Shown here piece by piece: positions 21,846-27,325 of a DNA stretch of 64,000 nucleotides (its first letter is position 1; each line of letters begins with the position of its first letter). This DNA comes from Methylococcaceae bacterium (GTDB lineage Bacteria > Pseudomonadota > Gammaproteobacteria > Methylococcales > Methylococcaceae). The stretch is from contig CADDYU010000002.1 in the NCBI GenBank assembly GCA_902810705.1, positions 1 to 64,000 on the forward strand, in the 5' to 3' direction. Below the pieces are notes generated by a model. The model was given only the letters and a program-made list of their open reading frames with translations. It ran no database searches and was not told where the DNA came from. The translations under genes and the position numbers were made by a program.

Positions 21846-23570
21846 ATGTGGATTCGGCCGGCCGGCCTCGCCTTGCTGATCGGAGCGCTGCGCTGCCAGG
21901 CCGCCGATCCCGTGGTGGTGAAGATCGAAGGCTTGAGCGAGCTTCTGGAAAAGAACGTTCGCGCCGTGCTGACCCTGACCGGAGAAACCGCCGATGCCGC
22001 TCCGGAAAGGATTCGTTTGGCCGAAGCGCGGGCGCCCGAGGAAATCCGGAAAGCCTTGGAGCCTTTCGGCTATTACCGGCCGCGAGTGGTGGAGGCGTCC
22101 GTCTCCCGCCGGGACGGCAATTGGCTAGCCGAGTACCGCATCGACCCGGGACCGCCCATCAGGCTTTCGGCGGTGGACGTCCGGCTCGTCGGGGAGGCGG
22201 CCCCCGTGCCGGAAATGCGCGCCCTGGTGGACGGGTTTCCCCTCAAGAAAGGCGATGTGCTCGACCAGACCCTCTACGAAAAAGGCAAAGGCGCGCTCCA
22301 GGACCGGGCCGCCGAACTGGGCTTTTTCGATGCCCGGCTGACGCGGCACGAGATTCAGGTCGATCTTGCAGCCTACACCGCCAAGCTCTATCTGCGGCTC
22401 GATTCCGGCCCCCGCTACCGCTTCGGACCCATTTCCTTCAATCAAACTCCGCTCCAGCCTGATCTGCTGCGCCGCTTCGTCCGCTTCGCCCCGCGCGAAC
22501 CTTATCGAGCCTCGGCCGTGTTGGCGCTGCAGAAGAGCCTGCTGAACAGCGGCTACTTCTCGAATGTCGATGTGGATCCGCAGCCCGAGCGGGCGAAGAA
22601 TAGGGAAACGCCGATCAAAGTCGATCTCGACATGGCGCCGCGCAATCGCTACGACATTGGAGTCGGCTACGGCACCGATACGGGGCCACGTCTTAGCCTG
22701 GGCTACCGAAACCGCTACGTGAATAGCTACGGCCACAGCTTTCAGGCCAATGGGCGAATATCCTTCATCTGGAACGATCTGAACGCGATTTACGCCATTC
22801 CGCTGGCGGATCCGGAAAAGGATCAGCTTGCCTTCACGGCGAGAAGCGGTCTGGAAAATACCGTGGTGGGAAATGCGAAAGTGCTTCTTGCGGGCGTCCG
22901 GCACACCACCAGCCGCTGGGGTCTTAGGGAGATGCTGGCCCTGGATTTTCAGCGCGAGAGCTTCAAGATCGCCGGGGTCCGCCAGACCGCCATTCTGTTG
23001 ATTCCGAGCGTCAACTACGGCTGGCTCTATTCGGATAACGCCATTTTTCCAAGCCAAGGCCTTCGCCTCGACGGCACTCTAGCCGGGGCCTGGGACGGCC
23101 TCGTGTCCGATGTCTCGTTGCTCCGTTTGCAAATCAACGCCAAGGGCTTATACAGCCTCGATGACGATAATCGGCTGATCGCCCGCGCCCAGTGGAGCGG
23201 GCTCGTCACCAGCGATTTCGATCGCCTGCCGCTCACCCAGCGGTTTTACGCCGGCGGCGACCAGTCGGTACGCGGCTACCGGTTCAACGAGATCGGTCCC
23301 CGTAATCGCAACGGCGACCGGATCGGTGGGCGCCATCTCCTGGTCGGAAGCCTGGAGTACGACCGGGTCTTGTTCGGCAACTGGGGCATGGCGGTATTCG
23401 CCGATGCCGGTCATGTCTACAACACGCGAGACGAACCGGTCAAGATCGGCGTGGGCGTGGGGGCCCGCTGGCGGTCTCCGGTAGGGCCGGTGCGCCTCGA
23501 TTTTGCCGTGCCCCTATCGAAAGCGGAAGACGCGTTCCAGGTGCATCTGGTACTGGGGCCCGATCTGTGA
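21846..23570 (+). CDS. tamA: translocation and assembly module subunit TamA (Omp85 family)
   Basis: TamA is an outer-membrane Omp85 protein that works with TamB in outer-membrane protein insertion and lipid transport. ATG 21846 gives a 574-residue product starting with a signal peptide (GLALLIGALRCQAA); ATG 21795 would add 17 charged residues in front of it. POTRA domains fill about the first 250 residues (GYYRPRVVEASVSRRDGNW and GFFDARLTRHEIQVD belong to them). The C-terminal barrel follows, including the GGDQSVRGYRFNEIGPRN motif of Omp85 lid loops and a final strand ending VHLVLGPDL. It overlaps tamB by four bases. Confidence 0.92.
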   Translation: MWIRPAGLALLIGALRCQAADPVVVKIEGLSELLEKNVRAVLTLTGETADAAPERIRLAEARAPEEIRKALEPFGYYRPRVVEASVSRRDGNWLAEYRIDPGPPIRLSAVDVRLVGEAAPVPEMRALVDGFPLKKGDVLDQTLYEKGKGALQDRAAELGFFDARLTRHEIQVDLAAYTAKLYLRLDSGPRYRFGPISFNQTPLQPDLLRRFVRFAPREPYRASAVLALQKSLLNSGYFSNVDVDPQPERAKNRETPIKVDLDMAPRNRYDIGVGYGTDTGPRLSLGYRNRYVNSYGHSFQANGRISFIWNDLNAIYAIPLADPEKDQLAFTARSGLENTVVGNAKVLLAGVRHTTSRWGLREMLALDFQRESFKIAGVRQTAILLIPSVNYGWLYSDNAIFPSQGLRLDGTLAGAWDGLVSDVSLLRLQINAKGLYSLDDDNRLIARAQWSGLVTSDFDRLPLTQRFYAGGDQSVRGYRFNEIGPRNRNGDRIGGRHLLVGSLEYDRVLFGNWGMAVFADAGHVYNTRDEPVKIGVGVGARWRSPVGPVRLDFAVPLSKAEDAFQVHLVLGPDL

Positions 23571-26500
23571 AGCGCCTCCTGGCCGGCCTGCTGGCTTTCT
23601 TTCTGCTGTTGCTCCTGGTGCCGGGCTTGGCGCTGTATTGGCTGGCGGCGACCGAGCCGGGGCTGCGCTGGCTGCTTCGGGAGGCCAGCGCCCGGATATC
23701 CGCAGTCGCAGTCGAGCGGGTGGAAGGCACTTTCCTGGAGGGATTCATCCTCCATGGACTCGTCTATCAGAGTTCCGCGATCGAGGTGCGCCTCGCTGAG
23801 CTCGACGTGCGTTGGGAGCCGAGGGTCTTGTGGCAGCGCCGCCTGCATTTCCGCTCGATCCATGCTCAGGGCTTGCAGGTGAGCTTGAAGGGAGAAGAGG
23901 GCGGCTCCGAGCCGCCCGCCTGGCCGCAATGGACCCTGCCCCTGGACGTGGCGATCGAGGAGGCACGGCTCGTGGGCGGGAACGTGCGGACGACGGCCGA
24001 CGCCGAGCCCATCGTTATCGACCGCCTTGACACGGCATTGCATCTCGCCAGGGAGGGATTGACCGTCGCCCGCTTCGACTTGGCGATGCCGATACTGAAG
24101 GCGGGGCTCTCGGGCTCGGTGGGGTTTACCGGCGAGCGGACGGTGGCGTTGAAGACGGCGTGGACGCTGGCGCTGGCCGGGCGGCCGGAGATTAAGGCCG
24201 CCGGCGCCGTCGTCGGCAATCCCGAGCGCCTGGAAATTCGCCAATCCCTTGAAGCGCCGGTTCCGGCCGAAGTGATGGCGGTGCTGTCCGATCCGCTCGA
24301 CAAACTGGGCTGGACGATGCAACTGGAGGTGCCCAGGTTTTCACCGCAAAGGCTCGATCCCGCCTGGAAGCCTTGGCCCTTGGCGCTAACCCTGCAAGGA
24401 CAGGGCATGCGGGCCGAAGCGGCGGCGACCGGCACCTTCTCGGCCGAAATCCCGGAAGTGGGCGAAGCACAAGGTCGCTTGCAAGCGAATTACCGGGCGC
24501 CGGGCGAAGTGGTTGTCGAGGCCCTGGACCTAGCCCTGCCGCGCACCGGAACCGATTTTCACCTGGAAGGCAAGGCGGAAAAACTCCAGGAAAACCCCGA
24601 ATTCACCGTATCCGCCCGCTGGCGGAACCTGGTCTGGCCACCTTCTCCAAAAACTGACAAGTTCGCCGGGAGCGAACTTGGACAGGCGGAGCCTGGCGCG
24701 AAGCGCAAGCCCCAGGGACGGGGTGCGCACAAGTTCGCCGGGAGCGAACTTGGACGGGCGGAGCCTGGCGCGAAGCGCAAGCCCCAGGGACGGGGCGGGC
24801 CATGGCGCAGCCCGGAAGGCCGGCTGGACGTCTCGGGCAGCCTCAAGGACTTTCGATTCGAGGCCGATGGCAAGCTCCGGAACTTTCGGGTTCAAGCCGA
24901 GGGCAACATCGGCATCGAGCCCGATCGGACCGTGTTGCGCGGCTTTCGGGTCCTGGGAGCCGGGGCCAAGATGGCGGTGGACGGCGTTCTGGGGCCGCGT
25001 CTCGATTTCGCTTGGACCCTGGAGGCGGCCGACCTGGGACTGTGGGTGCCAGGTGCCCAAGGGCGAATGAAGAGCCGCGGCACACTGCAAGGCACCCGGA
25101 CGGCCCCGGAGGGCGAGGCCGAACTCGCCGCCCGGGGACTTCGTTACGCAGGCAACGGAGTCGACGAGCTGAATCTGAATTTGAAAGCCGGTCTCCAGCC
25201 GGATTCTCCCTTTGTCTTGAATCTTTCCGCCGATGATTTGAGCGCGGCGGGGCAGAGGCTGGATATAGCCTTGGCAGGGCAGGGAACCCGCGCCCGGCAT
25301 CGCCTCACGGGACGGATCACAAGTTCGCCGGGAGCGAACTTGGACGGGCGGAGCCCAGCGCGAAGCGCGAGCCCCAGGGACGGGGTGGGCCATGGCTCGG
25401 TCACTGGCCGCGAGGCGGCTCCCCGGAGCCGGACCGAGCCGCCTTCGCGGCTGGACTTCCTGGCCGAAGGCGGATTCCGGGACGACGGTTGGACCGGCAG
25501 CATCGTCCGCTTCGACTTTACCGTTCCGCCGGCGGGAAGCTGGGATTTACGGCGGCCGGCGACCTTACGGTTGGGAGCGGAGAGCAGCGAATTGGGCAGG
25601 GCTTGCTGGGGCGGCGAGGGGGCCGACGCCTGCCTGGAGGCGAAATTCGCCGGCGCGGGCGATTGGCGGCTCGCCGCCGAACTGTCGCGCCTGCCCCTGA
25701 CCCGCTTCCAAAATGCCATGCCCGAAGGCGCGGCGGTGGCGGGATTCCTGAACGCCACGGCGAGATTTTCCGGGAAAGGCGGACTGATCGGGGAAGGCCG
25801 GCTGATTCTGGACGTCGCCGATTCCCGGCTGGACTATCGCGGCGAGGGAGGGAGCGCGCTGCGCTTCGAGCCCCGGCCTTTGATGCTCGAGGCCCTGGTG
25901 TCCGGCCGTGCCGGCAAGCTCCGCCTGGCGGCCGAACAGGCGGGCGTGGCCTCTCTGCACGGTCAGGCCAGCATCGAAGGCGCGCTGGACCCGGCCCGCC
26001 TGAAACAGGCGCGGCTTGCCGGCGGCGTGCAGGCTCGTCTGCAAAACCTCGCCCTGCTGGATCCTTTTCTCCCTCAGATCGAAAAGCTTCGCGGTAGCTT
26101 CAACGCCGATCTCCGGTTCGCCGGAACGGCTTCCGCTCCGGCGCTGAAGCTCGATGCCGCCGTGCCGGATGCAGGGTTCGCGCTGCCGCCGCTAGGTATA
26201 AACGTGCGGAATGTGAATTTACGGGCCACGACCGGCGAGGATGGCACGGTCGCGCTGCAAGGCCGGGCGGCTTCCGGCAGCGGAGAGATCCGGCTGGCCG
26301 GAGAGGCGACCCTGAACGGCGAGGCCGGCTGGCCTATGCACCTGAATGTCACCGGCAACCGGTTCCTGGCCGCCGATATTCCCGAAGCCAAGGTCTACGT
26401 ATCGCCGGACCTCGGCATCGGCTTCGAGCAAGGCAGGCTCCAGCTACAAGGCGAAATAACGGTGCCGGAAGCATCCCTCCGCGCGCCGGAACGACCGGGT

Positions 26501-27325
26501 GCGGTGAAACCTTCGGGCGACGTGGTTCTGGTGGGCGCCGAGGCGCCCCCGGAAGAGCCGGGCTTGCCTATAGAAACGCACGTGGATGTGCGGCTAGGCA
26601 ATAAGGTCGAGGTCCAGGGCGCCGGTTTTACCGGCCGGGTGGATGGACATGTCTTCATCGACCAAACGCCAAACGGGCCGGCTTTGGGTACGGGCGAGAT
26701 CGGCGTGCGCGACGGAAAGTACGCCCTTTACGGAGTGGAACTCGCCGTCGACAACGGTCGGCTGCTGTTCGCCCATTCACCGATCGAGAATCCCGGTCTG
26801 GATCTCAACGCCACTCGGCGGGTCGATAACGTCTTGGCGGGGGTGAGGGTACTTGGAACGCTCAACAAACCCAACGTCACCTTGTACTCCGACCCTCCCA
26901 TGGCCCAGACCGATATCCTGGCCTACCTGGTCACTGGCAAGCCGTTCGGCCTCGCTTCCCAACAGGAGGGCAGCTTGTTGCAAGGCGCCGCGGCGTCCCT
27001 GGGCGGATCGGTGGGCGGCTTCCTGGCGAAGGAAGTGAGCAGCCGCTTAGGGCTGGGCGAACTGGTGGACGTCAGCGTGCAAAGCTCGCTGTACGCTCAA
27101 GGGTTTCCGCAAGGCTATCGGCCCGGCCAGGTTTCGGGGGCCCAGAGTACCGCCCTGTTTCTAGGGCGGTATCTCACGCCCAAGCTGTACGTGCAGTACG
27201 GCATGGGATTGTTCCGCAACGCCTATGTGTTCCGGGTACGCTATGACCTCGCCAAGCATTGGAAACTTCAGACCGAGACCGGCCAGTTCAGCGGCGGGGA
27301 CATCCTTTATCAATGGGAGAGGTGA
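23567..27325 (+). CDS. tamB: translocation and assembly module subunit TamB
   Basis: TamB is a very long inner-membrane-anchored, AsmA-like periplasmic protein that forms a beta-taco bridge to TamA. The 1252-residue product begins with a membrane anchor (LLAGLLAFFLLLLLVPGLALYWL) and ends with the conserved DUF490 domain: GTGEIGVRDGKYALYGVELAVDNGRLLF, DPPMAQTDILAYLVTGKPFG and YDLAKHWKLQTETGQFSGGDILYQW. Three copies of a palindromic DNA repeat interrupt the poorly conserved middle: two in tandem at about residues 364-413 and one in another frame at about 585-610. They add Gly/Arg/Pro-rich segments unlike their surroundings without breaking the frame. The gene is coupled to tamA. Confidence 0.92.
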   Translation: MKRLLAGLLAFFLLLLLVPGLALYWLAATEPGLRWLLREASARISAVAVERVEGTFLEGFILHGLVYQSSAIEVRLAELDVRWEPRVLWQRRLHFRSIHAQGLQVSLKGEEGGSEPPAWPQWTLPLDVAIEEARLVGGNVRTTADAEPIVIDRLDTALHLAREGLTVARFDLAMPILKAGLSGSVGFTGERTVALKTAWTLALAGRPEIKAAGAVVGNPERLEIRQSLEAPVPAEVMAVLSDPLDKLGWTMQLEVPRFSPQRLDPAWKPWPLALTLQGQGMRAEAAATGTFSAEIPEVGEAQGRLQANYRAPGEVVVEALDLALPRTGTDFHLEGKAEKLQENPEFTVSARWRNLVWPPSPKTDKFAGSELGQAEPGAKRKPQGRGAHKFAGSELGRAEPGAKRKPQGRGGPWRSPEGRLDVSGSLKDFRFEADGKLRNFRVQAEGNIGIEPDRTVLRGFRVLGAGAKMAVDGVLGPRLDFAWTLEAADLGLWVPGAQGRMKSRGTLQGTRTAPEGEAELAARGLRYAGNGVDELNLNLKAGLQPDSPFVLNLSADDLSAAGQRLDIALAGQGTRARHRLTGRITSSPGANLDGRSPARSASPRDGVGHGSVTGREAAPRSRTEPPSRLDFLAEGGFRDDGWTGSIVRFDFTVPPAGSWDLRRPATLRLGAESSELGRACWGGEGADACLEAKFAGAGDWRLAAELSRLPLTRFQNAMPEGAAVAGFLNATARFSGKGGLIGEGRLILDVADSRLDYRGEGGSALRFEPRPLMLEALVSGRAGKLRLAAEQAGVASLHGQASIEGALDPARLKQARLAGGVQARLQNLALLDPFLPQIEKLRGSFNADLRFAGTASAPALKLDAAVPDAGFALPPLGINVRNVNLRATTGEDGTVALQGRAASGSGEIRLAGEATLNGEAGWPMHLNVTGNRFLAADIPEAKVYVSPDLGIGFEQGRLQLQGEITVPEASLRAPERPGAVKPSGDVVLVGAEAPPEEPGLPIETHVDVRLGNKVEVQGAGFTGRVDGHVFIDQTPNGPALGTGEIGVRDGKYALYGVELAVDNGRLLFAHSPIENPGLDLNATRRVDNVLAGVRVLGTLNKPNVTLYSDPPMAQTDILAYLVTGKPFGLASQQEGSLLQGAAASLGGSVGGFLAKEVSSRLGLGELVDVSVQSSLYAQGFPQGYRPGQVSGAQSTALFLGRYLTPKLYVQYGMGLFRNAYVFRVRYDLAKHWKLQTETGQFSGGDILYQWER
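24657..24728 (+). repeat. palindromic in-gene repeat, copy 1
   Basis: A 72-base unit inside tamB starting ACAAGTTCGC. It contains the perfect hairpin AAGTTCGC-N5-GCGAACTT and a GCGC-GAA-GCGC mini-palindrome. It is followed directly by copy 2, so the two form a tandem repeat with a period of exactly 72 bases (24 codons). It differs from copy 2 at three positions. It reads KFAGSELGQAEPGAK. Confidence 0.9.
24729..24806 (+). repeat. palindromic in-gene repeat, copy 2
   Basis: This copy has the same frame as copy 1 and reads KFAGSELGRAEPGAK. It extends to GGCCATGGC at its right border, giving 78 bases. It differs from copy 3 at only four positions over those 78 bases, although copy 3 lies 590 bases downstream. 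Confidence 0.9.
25319..25396 (+). repeat. palindromic in-gene repeat, copy 3, in a different reading frame
   Basis: The same 78-base sequence as copy 2, with four substitutions. The distance to copy 2 is 590 bases, not a multiple of three, so here tamB reads it in another frame as TSSPGANLDGRSPARSASP. The 8-bp hairpin near its left end is intact. Both ends match copy 2 to the base, which defines the unit. Confidence 0.9.

Follow-up and report, generated by a model that had tools for sequence, protein, structure and literature searches.

A 72-nt four-hairpin repeat within tamB of a Methylococcaceae bacterium, probably a REP-like mobile element of a family found across Gammaproteobacteria

Mobile palindromic DNA which is found in frame in conserved genes, and also in intergenic regions, has been described for Rickettsia and Wolbachia (PMC2229807). 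RU-1, RU-2 and RU-3 of enterobacteria, Correia elements and other MITEs are non-autonomous, have open frames and are found fused in proteins (PMC2229807), and Cod-2 of C. diphtheriae codes for different peptides in different frames (PMC2267715). REP elements are short covarying palindromes which occur as dimers and have intragenic copies (PMC3733652), properties they share with the repeat described below. Their single-stranded form is cleaved by TnpA-REP (PMC8266576). For the CGTC REPs, no transposase was found by Di Nocera et al. 2013 (PMC3733652). The E. coli tyrT operon contains RtT RNA (RF00391, rttR), a multi-hairpin unit. Like many gammaproteobacterial copies of the family reported here, it is placed within the T-loop of a tRNA 3' end that has been duplicated (GGTTCGA^...^ATCC).

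The window analysed is a stretch of 64,000 nucleotides of a Methylococcaceae bacterium (contig CADDYU010000002.1, assembly GCA_902810705.1). It contains an intact tamB gene, the product of which matches Pfam TamB (PF04357) with residues 903-1251 (E = 2.7e-67). Three copies of a repeat are located within this gene (Table 1). A sequence-only reading of the window had described them as 78-base units with an 8-bp hairpin, two in tandem at an exact period of 72 bases and the third 590 bases away. Number and arrangement were confirmed by a full covariance-model scan of the whole window, which returned three matches with E = 1.9e-16 or better (24656-24730, 24728-24802 and 25318-25392; with distances of exactly 72 and 590 bp); a fourth copy was not found, the next best match having E = 0.18. 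The identity between copies 2 and 3 is 95% over 79 nt, in agreement with the four differences counted before. Unit length and stem had to be corrected, as the repeating unit comprises 72 nt and its main stem has 9 bp and belongs to the first hairpin of a set of four. The additional bases of the longer unit are a CATGGC which lies outside the unit and is common to copies 2 and 3 (24801-24806 and 25391-25396); it may represent either a target preference or a copied flank. The change of frame with conserved DNA, also claimed in that reading, was found again: copies 1 and 2 encode DKFAGSELG..., copy 3 encodes TSSPGANLDG....

Table 1. Window coordinates of tamB, the repeat copies and their hairpins. 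Bit scores refer to the match to covariance model R1 of the element family; A1 denotes the first alignment.
Feature	Position	Strand	Description
tamB, host gene of the insertions	23567..27325	+	1252 codons, intact ORF
Element copy 1, 72-nt unit	24657..24728	+	tandem with copy 2; frame A (DKFAGSELGQAEPGAKRKPQGRG); 93.1 bits
Hairpin 1, copy 1	24658..24680	+	9-bp stem CAAGTTCGC/GCGAACTTG, loop CGGGA
Hairpin 2, copy 1	24683..24695	+	CAGGC GGA GCCTG; A1 columns 28-40
Hairpin 3, copy 1	24696..24706	+	GCGC GAA GCGC; A1 columns 41-51
Hairpin 4, copy 1	24709..24724	+	GCCCC AGGGAC GGGGT; loop A-N-GGA-X closed by C-G; A1 columns 54-69
Element copy 2, 72-nt unit	24729..24800	+	frame A; 92.3 bits when scored whole (overlapping copy)
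Hairpin 1, copies 2 and 3	24730-24752, 25320-25342	+	like copy 1
Element copy 3, 72-nt unit	25319..25390	+	frame B (TSSPGANLDGRSPARSASPRDGVGH); 87.7 bits
Second imperfect palindrome	25394..25462	+	unrelated to the element, directly after copy 3; fold z = -2.65

The unit consists of four consecutive hairpins with stems of 9, 5, 4 and 5 bp and the loops NNGGA, GNA, GNA and ANGGAX. Pairs changed on both sides amount to 16 of 23 in the first alignment (A1), which was not fitted to the covariance model, and to 21 of 23 in the wider alignment of diverse Gammaproteobacteria (A3), which was. In the alignments, 97-98% of the cells are paired, none of 500 shuffles reached the covariation, and sliding of the partners led to collapse. 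In shuffled sequence, the expected number of hairpin motifs is 0.00, and folding of the element as DNA and as RNA was in both cases far better than that of shuffles. The loops are the most constant part of the unit while the stems covary; perfect stems could be kept by quasi-palindrome repair instead of selection on the structure. In alignments A1-A3, nearly all loops of hairpins 2 and 3 have the form C(GNA)G. Triloops of the GNA type show unusual stability in DNA, and such stability of hairpins 2 and 3 would fit a single-stranded DNA form of the element.

The lack of stop codons in both tamB frames and in at least one reverse frame had been taken as a property of the repeat. On average, 4.9 of the six frames are open in 173 family copies, compared to 4.3 in shuffles; frame openness thus exceeds the expectation from composition only mildly.

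Hairpin 1, with its 9-bp stem and 5-nt loop, is like that of CGTC families 3-4 (PMC3733652), and in most A1 members its reverse strand is preceded by CGTC or TGTC. REPs of the CGTC super-family are marked by a CGTC, TGTC or CCTC tag, a stem of 8-9 bp and a loop of 4-5 nt. The outer stem pair is C-G in 28/28 members, whereas CGTC REPs have A-T at the first and second stem positions, and the unit has four hairpins instead of one. Head-to-tail 72-nt arrays are frequent in the element family, whereas tandem arrays are negligible for CGTC REPs according to the survey in PMC3733652. The distribution is also different, the element family being widespread in gamma- and the CGTC REPs in alphaproteobacteria.

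The TamB proteins of six genomes of the same taxonomic family were compared by protein search and multiple alignment, and both tamB segments are missing from all of them. In the protein search, matches to a TamB of 57% identity are interrupted at residues 363/411 and 589/629. At site 1, exactly 48 codons (2 x 72 nt) are cleanly missing from the six orthologues in the multiple alignment, and excision of 24657-24800 gives PKTAWRSPEG, compared to PKAPWRSPEG in the closest orthologue. At site 2, the orthologues are short of about 36 codons, corresponding to one 72-nt unit and ~36 nt of the second palindrome; copy 3 and this palindrome together probably make up the missing part. By this presence/absence evidence, which is between species and not movement seen in real time, the tamB copies are shown to be insertions, the orthologues being without even one copy.

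Slippage or unequal crossing-over within tamB, as in a minisatellite, is an extremely improbable source of the copies. The head-to-tail arrangement of copies 1 and 2 with its exact period and the varying number of units in the nuoG array (see below) would suit it, whereas copies are present at unrelated loci of the own genome and of hundreds of other genomes, copy 3 lies 590 bp off in a different frame, and the orthologues do not hold even one copy. Dispersed copies and empty orthologues refute such an origin; slippage accounts for the number of units in an array, not for their origin. We consider it highly probable that the tamB repeat is a non-autonomous, REP-like mobile 72-nt element of a large four-hairpin family, which was inserted at two sites of tamB and was tandemly duplicated at site 1.

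The family is very large and is distributed across Gammaproteobacteria and some other Pseudomonadota. The own genome has 18 copies at E ≤ 5.1e-9, 15 of which lie beyond tamB. In relatives, up to 114 or more copies per genome were counted, a lower limit with 128 candidates scored per genome. Positive genomes were 69 of 121 for the order, 146 of 369 for the class and 69 of 399 for the phylum. A search of genome contigs with a DNA pattern returned 20 named or MAG contigs, e.g. from Rheinheimera, Alishewanella and Ectothiorhodospira; no match to the element was obtained in the viral contigs and plasmids searched. Several copies, one of them 93% identical to the tamB copies, are found in genome G013 (C1 1.27-1.28 Mb; L221, L215), in an island which also contains a DUF6079 gene and helicases of the SNF2/ResIII type. 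This is probably a defence island, and the copies within it hint at horizontal spread. A description of the family was not found in literature searches, which does not prove that none exists. The family and its link to RtT RNA (see below) appear to be new; protein-coding palindromic elements are already known as a kind.

Long ORFs of protein families harbour 12 of the 18 copies of the own genome, in both orientations. In addition to the three in tamB, two were found in a PmbA/TldD-like gene, three in a gene for a TgpA transglutaminase and one in hydantoinase A; antisense copies are present in the genes for 4'-phosphopantetheinyl transferase (PPTase, two copies) and a VanZ-like protein (one copy). 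PDB alignments of the hydantoinase and of the 4'-phosphopantetheinyl transferase are interrupted at the inserts. One relative has a copy in hsdR. Frame A is used in tamB copies 1 and 2 and in nuoG, frame B in tamB copy 3 and the TldD-like gene, and frame C in the hydantoinase gene. Since all three forward frames are used by element copies, the DNA and not the peptide is the shared feature.

In nuoG, the units are placed between ATG-CCT and the 2Fe-2S domain (loci L229-L234). Six species of one genus have 1, 1 and a part, 2, 2, 3 and 6 units, the sixth of the six being truncated, whereas nuoG of the own genome and of genome G008 has none. The number of units varies by species and could be used for typing. 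No in-frame ATG, GTG or TTG was found between the first unit and the 2Fe-2S domain. Translation must therefore begin upstream of the repeats, and, judged from the sequence, these must be translated as an N-terminal extension. In stem 2 of the nuoG units, A-T, C-G or G-C is found; the change on the left swaps Q, P and R, and the one on the right, in the partner codon, is silent. Here, structure is preserved at the cost of protein sequence, either through selection or through quasi-palindrome repair.

The nuoG extension is present in 6/6 sampled species of the genus, which might indicate that the peptide itself was selected, i.e. that the acquired low-complexity linker is of use to TamB, NuoG and others. 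Such selection is very unlikely, as different genes read the same DNA in different frames and from the opposite strand, the nuoG copies tolerate the stem-preserving replacements of Q, P and R, and their number drifts from 1 to 6.

The flanks of 68 copies were inspected; the unit is preceded by (G/C)A and followed by AA. A target duplication of more than 1-2 nt was visible neither in these flanks nor at the nuoG and tamB sites. MITEs are bounded by terminal inverted repeats and, in most cases, by a target duplication; neither was seen in the tamB element family. The step of tandem copies is 72 nt in tamB, the TldD-like gene, nuoG and several arrays of relatives, and 75 nt in the TgpA gene. Mutually pairing flanks of ≥ 7 bp were found for 7 of the 68 copies versus 1.2% at random places. 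This enrichment inside other palindromes is partly due to one repeat class and is suggestive rather than strong.

Y1 (RAYT-type) transposase genes are present in the own and in related genomes. Their number (Y1_Tnp) does not track the copy number of the element (rho 0.22, p 0.19), no Y1_Tnp was detected at E ≤ 1e-8 in one complete genome that has 30 copies of the element, and 37 loci read for elements flanking Y1_Tnp yielded one weak neighbour. A RAYT-driven REP was rejected, there being no link by copy number or location. In contrast to the REP GTAG super-family, no conserved GTAG is present beside the stem in the element alignment, and no RAYT/Y1 gene is associated. RPEs are single long stem-loops of 105-146 bp and restricted to Rickettsia, whereas the tamB family has 72 nt and four small hairpins; in-frame palindromic repeats in conserved genes which are missing from orthologues were found in both (here in tamB, nuoG and others).

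The sequence-only reading had likened the repeat to RPE and REP elements and had named a target duplication and a REP-associated tyrosine transposase as marks to look for. The likeness in behaviour stands; the element is not a standard REP, having four hairpins, no GTAG and no associated RAYT. A duplication of at most 1-2 nt is possible at the tamB and nuoG sites, and the Y1 genes that exist have no tie to the element by number or location. The mobile element suspected in that reading is supported by the 15 further copies, several of them in other protein genes in other frames, and by the six orthologues without both segments; the spread of the family, the tRNA T-loop sites and the link to RtT RNA were not part of it.

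By analogy with the cleavage of REPs, a single-stranded hairpin serving as substrate for an enzyme acting in trans is the most likely mode of movement. The element would move as a folded single strand, on which a HuH/Y1-type (RAYT-like) or similar recombinase of the host or of foreign origin would act in trans. This recombinase would read the loops, and joining would take place at a (G/C)A^A-like site, in many cases within another hairpin. In-gene copies would survive because the unit has 24 codons and seldom contains a stop; the peptide added by an inserted unit would be short and hydrophilic and would lie at the N-terminus or in a loop that tolerates it. For TamB, the element is most likely neutral baggage.

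Copies outside the taxonomic family of the host cluster behind tRNA genes. In nearly all of the 20 cases read, the element splits a duplicated tRNA 3' end at its T-loop (...GGTTCGA-element-ATCCCTCTCTCTCCGCCA). No tRNA was found near the copies at five intergenic sites of the own genome and at 53 loci of close relatives scanned. Model R1, which was built without RtT, matches E. coli RtT copies and argVYZQ spacers with 22.4, 21.0 and 16.7 bits; these matches are weak (E = 1e-4 to 2.5e-3 in 8.5 kb) and have GA...GAGTAA in register. In E. coli K-12 (L326 2567-2737, L327 2942-3416), the RtT copies and the argV-argY/argZ-argQ spacers behind csrA match weakly and in the same register. The RF00391 model covers tRNA-linked copies from end to end, with scores of 29.6 to 38.1 bits that do not reach its gathering score of 45. 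E. coli RtT has degenerate hairpins 1 and 4, and E. coli rttR overlaps the annotated small protein gene tpr. Judging by these alignments, the element family and RtT RNA likely, if unproven, share descent. Membership in RF00391 does not extend to the tamB copies: in contrast to RtT, they are not located beside a tRNA and are without tRNA-derived outer arms, and a search of the window and of nine loci from the own genome and its relatives gave no match to Rfam, including RF00391 (E-values up to 1).

Copies were also found near csrA, namely in 12 of 56 csrA neighbourhoods at E ≤ 0.001, all 12 downstream of csrA and on the same strand; the 56 neighbourhoods come mostly from element-positive genomes, and the four cases seen first were left out. 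Association with csrA itself was rejected. The copies are near csrA because tRNA-Ser and tRNA-Arg genes lie behind it; they follow these genes and, in other cases, tRNA-Gln, tRNA-Leu and others.

The CsrA-type loop of hairpin 4 is the most interesting point. A high-affinity CsrA/RsmE site is an ANGGAX hexaloop directly on the stem (PMC4005645). Hairpin 4 has the form C-(A N GGA X)-G, which is exact in 138 of 181 distinct copies; 16 more lack N alone, and three are without A(N)GGA. N and X are its variable loop positions, and the loop of hairpin 1 is an NNGGA pentaloop. The element might thus act as RNA, with CsrA/RsmA-binding hairpins which recruit or titrate CsrA and are thereby kept fixed in their loops. 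We regard this as rather unlikely. In its favour, the own genome has one csrA, and two copies near tRNA-Arg genes match rsmX (CsrB/Rsm clan), although sub-threshold and far under the gathering score. Against it, at least 6 of 20 listed genomes without detectable csrA carry elements, one of these genomes being 100% complete, and the proximity to csrA is accounted for by the tRNA-Ser and tRNA-Arg genes behind it. Orientation relative to genes is barely biased, with 26 sense and 19 antisense copies by crude ORF calling, in which short ORFs are unreliable; a strong strand bias as a mark of RNA function was not found with this caller. A wider proposal would unite RtT RNA, CsrA-type GGA hairpins and protein-coding repeats in one ancient mobile family with its own CsrA site. 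DNA of this family would be mobile in the form of folded single strands, with tRNA T-loops, other palindromes and coding sequence as targets, and its transcripts would engage the global regulator CsrA. The proposal is speculative and, in our estimate, improbable.

The invasion of proteins in frame by palindromic DNA is not peculiar to Rickettsia and Wolbachia. It also occurs in a very widespread gammaproteobacterial family, which in one genus has reached the core respiratory subunit NuoG in all species sampled. RtT RNA, the function of which is unclear, gains an evolutionary context as the probable relative of a mobile element, seated in a tRNA T-loop. A covariance model, sites with and without the element and young copies that are identical are now available; on this basis, the long-standing question of the mover of transposase-less CGTC/REP-like palindromes becomes testable.
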